64,000 nucleotides of DNA from Citreicoccus inhibens (GTDB taxonomy: Bacteria; Myxococcota; Myxococcia; Myxococcales; Myxococcaceae), in assembly GCF_019039035.1 (NCBI RefSeq), contig NZ_JAHNZT010000015.1:62001-126000 (forward strand), given 5' to 3'. This document shows, piece by piece, positions 36,585-39,500 of this stretch. The notes under the pieces are model-generated. The model was given only the letters and a program-made list of their open reading frames with translations, searched no databases and was not told the origin of the DNA. The translations under genes and the position numbers were made by a program. How positions within the stretch are numbered: the first letter of the stretch is position 1; each line of letters opens with the position of its first letter.

Positions 36585-39500
36585 TCAGGGGGCGTCGCGC
36601 TCGACCTCCACCTTGCCCATGCGGAGGATGTGGAACTCGACGCGGCGGTTGTTCTCGCGGCCCGCCGCCGTCTTGTTGGTGTCCACCGGCTTGGACTCGC
36701 CATACCCCACGGACTCCAGGCGCTCGGGGGCGATGCCATCCTTCACGAGGAACGTGCGCACGTTGGCGGCGCGGCGACGTGACAGGTCCAGGTTCTTTCC
36801 GTCGTCGCCCTGGCTGTCCGTGTGTCCCTCCACTCGCAGCAGCTCCACCTGCGGGTTGGCGCGCAGCACCGACGCCACCTGCTTCAGCAGCGGGAACGAG
36901 CGCGGGAGGATGATGTCCTTGTTGGTGGCGAAGTAGACCTTCTCGAGGATGAGGATGCGCTCACCCTCGACGAGCACCTTCACCTTGCCCTTGTCCGGGC
37001 AGCCGTCCTCGTCCTCGACGCCGTTGATGGTCTCGGGCTCGTTCGGGCACTTGTCCGCCACGTCCGGGATGCCGTCGTGGTCGTTGTCCGGATCCGGGCA
37101 GCCGTCCTCATCCTGGAAGCCGTCCTTGTCCTCGGGCTGGTTGGGGCACTTGTCCAGCGAGTCCACGATGCCATCGCCGTCCGAGTCCACCGGGGGCGCG
37201 GGCTTGGGCTCGACCTTCACGGGCACCGTGTCCGGGCAGCCGTCCTGGTCCTCGAAGCCGTTCACCGTCTCCGGCTCGTTCGGGCACTTGTCCGCCACGT
37301 CCGGGATGCCGTCGTTGTCGTTGTCCGGATCCGCGCAGCCGTCATCGTCCTGGAAGCCGTCCAGGTCTTCGGGACCGAAGGCGCAGACCGGCTTGGGGGC
37401 CGGCTTCGGCGCGGGAGACGGCTCGGCGCTGTAGCTCAGGCCCGCGAGGACGCGGTACCCAGGCGTGCCATACCCCCGGGTGATGCCCGGACCGGCGCCC
37501 ACGTGCGCGGTGAGGCCCCCCGCCGCGCGGTACTTCAGCGCGGCGAGGATCTCCAGCGGACGCTCCTCCACGTCGTGCTCCTTCAGGCCCATGGCCCCCA
37601 CGAGCGTGGCTTCGGCGGACAGCGGCGTGCGGCCCACGGTGAAGGGCACCTCCAGGCCCAGCCCGTACGCCAGCGCGTTGCCCGCGCGCAGGTTGCGCAG
37701 TTGCTGCTCGCGGCGGAAGTCCACGCCGATGTTCGCCGCCAACCGCACGCGGCGCCCATACTCCGCCACCAGCCGGGGGTTCACCGACACGCCCGAGCCC
37801 CCCAGGAAGTCCGAGGCACCGCCCGTGGGCAATGACACCGGAACCGTGAGCGCCAGGCCGTAGTCATCCCCTTCCAGCAGCCGCGCCTTGGGAACGAGCC
37901 GCAGGTCCCCGATTCCGCCCGAGCTCACGCCCTGCGCGAAGGAGGCATCCACGTTTGGGGCAGGCTGGGACTGTTGAAGCGTCACCGGGAGGACGACGCC
38001 CAGCTCCAGCCGATCGAACAGACCGATCGCACCCATCAGGTCCAACCCCACCTGGCTGCGCACCAGCGAGGTGAGGAACTTCTCCGAGCGAGGGTCGAAG
38101 AAGTTGAGGGGCTTGTCCGCGTAGTTGAACGACAACCCCACGTTCCAGCCCAGGTGGCGCATCACCTTGGCCCCATGCACGCCGAGGATGTCCCCAGCGG
38201 CCGGACCCGGCTTGTACTGCTGCACGTCGATGGCCTGCGAGGCGGCCGGAGCCTGGGCCCGCGCCGCCGGAGCCACCAGGGCCACCGTCAGCGCCAACCC
38301 CAGGAGCGCCCCGGACAGGTTCCCCCGCGCACCCGAGCGGCGAGCGCGGCGCCCCATCATCGGCAGCGCGAGGAGCAGCAGCGCCAGCGGCGCGAGCGAG
38401 CCCGCCCCACCCGTGCTGCAGCCACGGCCCACGACGAGGAAGTCGTCGTTGGCGTCGAGCGGGTTGGTGCCGCCCGCCACTTCCTCACCGTCCAGCACGC
38501 CGCCGTGGTCCGTGTCCGCCTGCCGCGGATCCGTCTCGCCGTCGTCGAGCCCGCCGTTGTGGTTCTTGTCCTCCTGACCATCCGTCAGGCCGTCCTCGTC
38601 GGTGTCGGCCTTGAGCGGGTTGGTGGCGTTGGAGCCCTTGACCTCGGTGCCGTCGAGCAGCCCGTCCCCGTCCGTGTCCTTGTTGTTGGGGTCGGTCTCC
38701 TCGGCGCCCACGCGGCCGTTGCGGTCCGCGTCCTCCTCACCGTCCGTCAGGCCGTCCTTGTCGGTGTCCGCCTGCTTCGGGTCCGTCTTGGTGGACGGGT
38801 CCAGGTCCGGATGGAAGTGGGGAGAATTGCGGTCCGTGCCCGAGGGCGCGGTCTCCGCCGTGATGCCGCTCTCCAGGCCGTCCGTCAGGCCGTCGTTGTC
38901 GCTGTCCGGATCGAGCGCGTCGATGATGCCGTCGCCATCCGTGTCCGTGATGCCGTCGACGCCGTCGATCACGCCGTCGTCATCCGTGTCGTTGTCGAAC
39001 GGATCCAACCCGAGCGCCAGCTCGGTGGCGTTGTCGATGCCGTCACCATCCGCGTCGATGTCGTCCGACTTGACGAGCGGGTTCGTCTCGCCGGCGTCCA
39101 CCCTGCCGTTGTGGTTGGCGTCCTCGATGCCGTCGAACACGCTGCCGCCGTCCGTGTCCTTGTTGAGCGGATCCGTGTGGGTGCTCGGGTCCGCGTCCGC
39201 GACGAACTTCGCCGGGTTGGTGCCCGTGCCCTGCGGCTGCGTGAGGCCCAGCTCCAGGCCGTCCGTCAGCCCGTCGCCGTCCGTGTCCGCCTTGTTCGGG
39301 TCCGTCTCTCCGGCGCTCACGAGGCCGTCATGGTTGGCGTCCTCGTTGCCATCGAGCAGACCGTCATCGTCCGTGTCGTCGTCGAGCGGATCCGTGTGGC
39401 TGACCTTCACCTCGAGGCCGTCCGGCAGACCGTCGCCGTCCGTGTCCGGGTTGGTGGGGTCGGTGCCGTGAATCGCCTCGTCCGCGTCGGACAGACCGTC

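Follow-up and report, generated by a model that had tools for sequence, protein, structure and literature searches.

What becomes of a protein in which a MYXO-CTERM-like sorting tail is followed in frame by a second signal peptide and an outer-membrane barrel of the OmpA family? This question is raised by a gene of Citreicoccus inhibens, which we analyzed in a window of 64,000 nucleotides (contig NZ_JAHNZT010000015.1, positions 62,001 to 126,000; coordinates below are those of this whole stretch). From sequence comparisons, we consider it probable that the gene encodes a precursor from which two proteases would release a surface adhesin and a barrel anchored to peptidoglycan. The two products would be equal in number, as TraA and TraB are. 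We infer both of the cuts, the lipidation, the export route and the pairing of the products. To our knowledge, it is rare in bacteria that cleavage of a polyprotein yields envelope proteins which are sorted separately. If our reading is true, the recently discovered myxosortase would here have a natural substrate that is also cut by a second protease, and the gene predicts a pairing of barrel and adhesin also in those cases where the two are now encoded apart.

One reading frame for two exported proteins

The minus-strand frame was found to be stop-free from 36585 to 45566 by translation, and when opened at the TTG at 45566 it comprises 2993 amino acids. A Sec-type signal peptide (MHTPQS...SAHA^E, with the cut judged by eye) begins at the ATG at 45443. 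The original prediction that the frame from this ATG continues through a MYXO-CTERM-like tail to another signal peptide and an OmpA barrel protein was borne out, as there is no stop codon between 45443 and 36585. At the junction, TSP3 repeats are followed by RGCSTGGAGSLAPLALLLLALPMMGRRARR, which is the MYXO-CTERM-like tail, and shortly after it by the second signal peptide. This signal ends in APAARA^Q, where signal peptidase I is predicted to cut at ARA^Q, between positions 38256 and 38255 (Q codon 38255-38253). The N-terminal part belongs to AgmC by its N-terminal domain, and the C-terminal part to the OmpA-family outer-membrane proteins, based on both its PF00691 match and the barrel in a structural model (Table 1). 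The gene, which sits between ftsA and ftsZ, is therefore a polyprotein gene in the sense that a single open frame encodes two exported proteins; a polyprotein had been suggested for this locus from the outset, and its cuts are predicted.

Table 1. Features of the fused gene and its neighbours (window coordinates).
Feature	Coordinates	Strand	Basis
Fused gene from ATG 45443	36585..45443	-	Single stop-free frame; conserved
First signal peptide, cleavage after SAHA	45321..45443	-	Translation, site placed by eye
AgmC N-terminal domain (NF047640)	44091..45362	-	391 bits, cut-off 275; residues 69-492 of the 2993-aa frame
Bacterial Ig-like repeats (Big_13, Big_6)	39600..43920, ends approximate	-	Profile matches
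Thrombospondin-3-type repeats (TSP3_bac)	38440..39521, ends approximate	-	Profile matches
Internal MYXO-CTERM-like tail (RGCSTGG, hydrophobic helix, GRRARR)	38337..38426	-	Cys codon 38420-38418; TIGR03901 18.3 bits, cut-off 20; pN/pS 0.39
Basic loop and putative second signal peptide	38256..38345	-	Junction anatomy, codon comparison
Predicted outer-membrane beta-barrel, ~12 strands by own count	37428..38147	-	Model mean pLDDT 83; FapF TM-score 0.56-0.68 by target length
TSP3-type calcium-repeat linker	36981..37403, ends approximate	-	Sequence and structure comparison (5wtl)
OmpA peptidoglycan-binding domain (PF00691)	36645..36935	-	Residues 2878-2974; 73.7 bits, cut-off 27.2
ftsA, upstream neighbour	45731..46966	-	Named from own sequence
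ftsZ, downstream neighbour	35044..36333	-	Named from own sequence

The internal element has the Cys motif, hydrophobic helix and Arg cluster of a MYXO-CTERM tail but not the C-terminal position, as the chain continues to 36585. Its scores were just under the cut-offs of both available profiles, TIGR03901 (Table 1) and TIGR03382 (12.8 bits versus 15.85), and five of ten related junctions scored over one or the other. The source genome had 27 matches to TIGR03901 at E values of up to 1. In keeping with the expectation that such tails normally end proteins, a stop codon followed within 14 residues in 21 of these, and four others were unconvincing as tails (L140, L141, L144, L146). The two matches that run on are the fused gene and a paralogue on contig 37 (L126/L003), whose tail passes TIGR03901 at 21.8 bits; in both, the tail is followed by a signal peptide and a barrel of the same type. 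In the paralogue, 313 residues follow the tail match and the frame ends before any TSP3 or OmpA region, so that its barrel would not hold peptidoglycan. PMC11980579 attributes the cleavage of MYXO-CTERM proteins to the myxosortase MrtX, and a gene for MrtX was found in the source genome (444.5 bits, cut-off 180).

The junction and its proposed processing

We compiled 59 distinct fused junctions by the pattern of a Cys, a helix and a basic pair, in frame upstream of a barrel signal peptide. The tail and the hydrophobic stretch are present in all 59 by these selection rules, and many of them are closely related to one another. The distance from the Cys to the last residue of the second signal was 40-59 residues, and the net charge of the loop was +3 to +8 in every junction. 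Ala, Val or Ser at position -3 together with Ala at -1 was found in 56/59 junctions. As our site picker favours [AVS]xA sites, we ran the same picker on 200 shuffles, which gave a mean of 33 and a maximum of 44 such sites, and also made a stricter count of AxA^[QDE], which was present in 54/59 junctions, while the shuffles averaged 8.3 and never exceeded 18. Two of the three junctions off the pattern (L049, L050) have AHA^Q five residues further on.

Codon comparisons among 13 orthologues at the ftsA locus revealed differences in constraint along the junction (uncorrected pN/pS, with bootstrap ranges over codons). The ratio was lowest in the tail (0.39; 0.24-0.58), followed by the start of the mature barrel (0.46; 0.36-0.57) and the end of the TSP3 repeats (0.56; 0.36-0.82), and was highest in the loop plus second signal (0.85; 0.70-1.01). 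This pattern indicates that the internal tail is conserved like a working element, as well as its flanking domains are, and that the second signal behaves as a signal peptide.

Based on this anatomy, we propose that the first signal peptide would route an adhesin of ~2400 residues through Sec until the MYXO-CTERM helix halts transfer, with the Arg cluster staying in the cytoplasm. The following hydrophobic stretch would re-enter Sec as the second signal peptide, and the chain would then form a short hairpin in the membrane, its basic loop lying in the cytoplasm. MrtX would likely cut directly behind the Cys, which is presumably lipidated, and signal peptidase I would act at ARA^Q; together the two cuts would remove the intervening 54 residues. 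The second part would form the outer-membrane barrel, with a TSP3 linker and an OmpA domain bound to peptidoglycan, and the single chain would set a 1:1 ratio of adhesin to anchor, as in the TraA/TraB complex. Two observations speak against this reading: the tail of the fused gene scores under the cut-offs of both MYXO-CTERM profiles, and the barrel also occurs standalone or in an adjacent two-gene form, which indicates that the fusion is dispensable for the barrel.

The original prediction offered a different use of the junction, in which one Arg cluster is shared by the tail and the second signal, and the barrel half starts at an internal ATG. The first part of this proposal held in relatives with short loops (L119, L086, L078, L151), where one Arg cluster can serve both elements; an apparent dual-use cluster was seen at the distant loci L119 (RRRRGIAVLSM) and L086 (RRRRAAWGL). 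The second part fared less well. The ATGs at 38360 and 38357 are indeed present in frame within the junction, and if the barrel half were made, also or solely, from such a start inside the tail, no polyprotein would be needed. An in-frame ATG occurs in the region in 38/59 junctions, and an ATG, GTG or TTG in 57/59. However, the ATG count is set by Met residues, and synonymous resampling leaves it at 38/59; we therefore rejected the presence of an ATG as evidence for internal initiation.

An ATG with a Shine-Dalgarno-like word was found in 0/59 junctions versus 29/58 standalone or adjacent relatives, and the contrast held when equal windows were compared (ATG, 0/59 versus 26/58; any start codon, 3/59 versus 29/58). 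Only one junction had any start codon with such a word, where synonymous resampling expects 0.1 for ATG and 2.2 for any start. This contrast lies mostly between lineages and is weakened as proof, since inside the family the word was found in 3/15 standalone barrel genes versus 1/52 fused ones, and since a start codon accompanied by the word was seen at two of the seven distant fused loci. The positions of the start codons also differ from genus to genus. Two junctions (L073, L157) have no start codon at all, and five have none that would keep the basic n-region (L073, L157, L045, L046 from M. xanthus, and L047). Overall, an internal start is disfavoured, and we regard it as unlikely.

It is also quite unlikely that the chain stays whole, anchored in the membrane by its hairpin, or that just one of the two sites is used. 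This is because AxA^[QDE] is kept at the frequency given above while the surrounding loop and signal vary, and because it is hard to see how a single chain could combine a hairpin in the inner membrane with a barrel in the outer one.

A further possibility concerns the barrel itself. The model of the C-terminal half, built from 29 sequences (pTM 0.52), has a barrel, a TSP3 linker and an OmpA domain, and its nearest solved folds were FapF barrels (PDB 5o65, 5o67 and 5o68, which share the fold at 15-17% identity) and the periplasmic part of a Capnocytophaga OmpA. Going by the PDB title, FapF differs in being a Pseudomonas secretion barrel, a polypeptide transporter, and by this likeness the barrel might export its own adhesin in a FapF- or autotransporter-like manner, with the fusion delivering channel and passenger together. 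We consider this very improbable. A similar fold does not give function, the type II system is the reported export route of MYXO-CTERM proteins (PMC11980579), and the order of barrel, TSP3 and OmpA is that of TraB, which is described as an anchor (PMC12045341). We favour a precursor that would be cut at both sites.

Conservation, relatives and described systems

A survey of 96 genomes of the family, with up to 12 candidates scored per genome, gave a match at E <= 1e-80 in at least 66; the other 30 were without one among the matches listed. In three genera, g1 (two genomes; the genus of the source genome), g5 (16; including Corallococcus) and g19 (27; including Myxococcus and Pyxidicoccus), all 45 of 45 genomes had the fusion without an internal stop, each with a match of at least 67% identity that crosses the junction stop-free. 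A sequencing error or a strain-specific stop loss is therefore ruled out, as the fusion is seen in independent assemblies and in named species. The suggestion that a lost stop codon had fused two adjacent genes stands as to the fusion origin but not as to a recent event: the fusion is old and conserved, and a stop after the Arg cluster, for which a comparison of orthologues had been suggested, was found in none of the 45.

The fusion was also observed in further Myxococcaceae and Archangiaceae, and with other adhesins at seven distant Myxococcota loci (L076, L078, L085, L086, L091, L094, L119). The N-terminal halves of these seven had no AgmC match at E <= 1e-5; they carry TSP3, DUF11, Big_9 or HYDIN-like Ig domains. 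In a quick tree of 110 related barrels, which has many long branches and in which the adjacent class was picked by eye, 52 were fused, 51 alone and seven beside a tail-bearing gene. The fused gene of C. inhibens falls in a clade of 18 members, all fused (support 100), and within a clade of 60, whose members are mostly Myxococcaceae and Archangiaceae (judged by name or kinship), 45 are fused, 13 alone and two adjacent. The least number of changes between fused and not fused was 10, of which well supported branches force three, with gain and loss indistinguishable. Myxococcus vastator (L063) and G062 (L148) have a stop directly after the tail at a second locus. Where the two genes are adjacent they overlap or abut (traA/traB of the source genome, ATGA; L093, GTGA; L110, TGATG; L084, +1; L092, +9), and such pairs are one small step from fusion. 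In addition, some standalone barrels, L060 and L057 (Corallococcus) and L068 (a Myxococcaceae MAG), were seen by eye to have apparent remnants of a tail or TSP3 repeats upstream, pointing to the probable loss of a former adhesin half.

These relatives raise the possibility of a phylum-wide class of polyproteins, for and against which we see the chances as even. In such a class, adhesins of several unrelated kinds would share one chain with a TraB-like peptidoglycan-anchored barrel, two membrane proteases would flank a single hairpin, and the Arg cluster would provide both the stop-transfer charge and the n-region. Fusion and splitting would have occurred repeatedly, and TraB-like barrels would be general partners of MYXO-CTERM adhesins.

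A close comparison is TraA/TraB, likewise a MYXO-CTERM adhesin followed by a barrel-TSP3-OmpA protein. In the source genome these are two separate genes with an overlap of 4 nt, in contrast to the one fused gene, and PMC3325183 describes M. xanthus traA/traB as two overlapping genes as well. The C-terminal half of the fused gene is not TraB itself: it matches the TraB profile NF033763 at 316 bits, under the cut-off of 700, and the source genome has its own genuine traA (841.6 bits, cut-off 750) and traB (998.1 bits, cut-off 700). The preprint PMC12045341 gives a TraA:TraB ratio of 1:1, with TraA modelled atop the TraB barrel. The fused gene suggests that TraA/TraB, with its two parts, exemplifies a more general scheme of adhesin plus anchor.

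Judged by position and sequence, the fused gene is the counterpart of MXAN_5598 of M. xanthus, and the locus of M. xanthus AM003 (L046) is 71% identical to it. MXAN_5598 is described as a large adhesin with an internal MYXO-CTERM, a barrel and an OmpA domain, beside ftsA and ftsZ, and the authors propose that two genes were fused and that the N-terminal part is processed (PMC11980579, 2025). The original statement that no MYXO-CTERM polyprotein had been described is thereby overtaken. The available passages of that paper have no mention of a second signal peptide, a hairpin, a second cut, conservation across genera or other lineages. MXAN_5598 was also listed in an outer-membrane-vesicle proteome, in the available text of which the two halves are not told apart (PMC4158809), and a full-text search for the name gave these two papers. 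What was known already is thus MXAN_5598 as an internal MYXO-CTERM protein; added here are the two-signal hairpin, its conservation and its recurrence with other adhesins.

Outside this group, the FbcH cytochrome b/c1 precursor of Bradyrhizobium likewise combines two envelope proteins in one gene, and they are separated by a cut at a signal peptide inside the chain. It differs from the fused gene in having no sorting tail, one cut, and products that belong to an inner-membrane complex. Our literature search found no paper on FbcH, none linking AgmC with Myxococcus and, by titles and the beginnings of abstracts of the 15 papers listed out of 47, no case of a bacterial polyprotein with internal signals.

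The ftsA-ftsZ interval

An ftsA gene lies upstream of the fused gene in the window and at 11 named loci. Fused genes occupy other sites too, as no ftsA was seen at five fused loci where the upstream frame is complete (L053, L054, L055, L070, L073). We compared the stretch downstream of ftsA in 15 genomes (L185-L199). In five, the ftsA-ftsZ interval is occupied by a similarly built fused gene (3723 to 5220 codons), and in three others ftsA and ftsZ are direct neighbours. A further three have ftsZ ~5 to 13 kb from ftsA with no fused gene, and in four ftsZ lies outside the compared stretch. Because of the location between these two genes, a connection of adhesion with division can be put to the test.

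The interval (35044-46966 here) resembles an insertion site. Three loci of other genera at the same ftsA-ftsZ place (L031, L150, L158) fall outside the clade of the C. inhibens gene in the tree, which may reflect weak resolution or tree error, repeated use of the site by insertion, or conversion. The five longer fused frames (L190, L191, L192, L193, L194) have an N-terminal signal that looks lipoprotein-like, with a hydrophobic stretch and then a Cys, and that differs from the AxA-type first signal of the C. inhibens fused gene.
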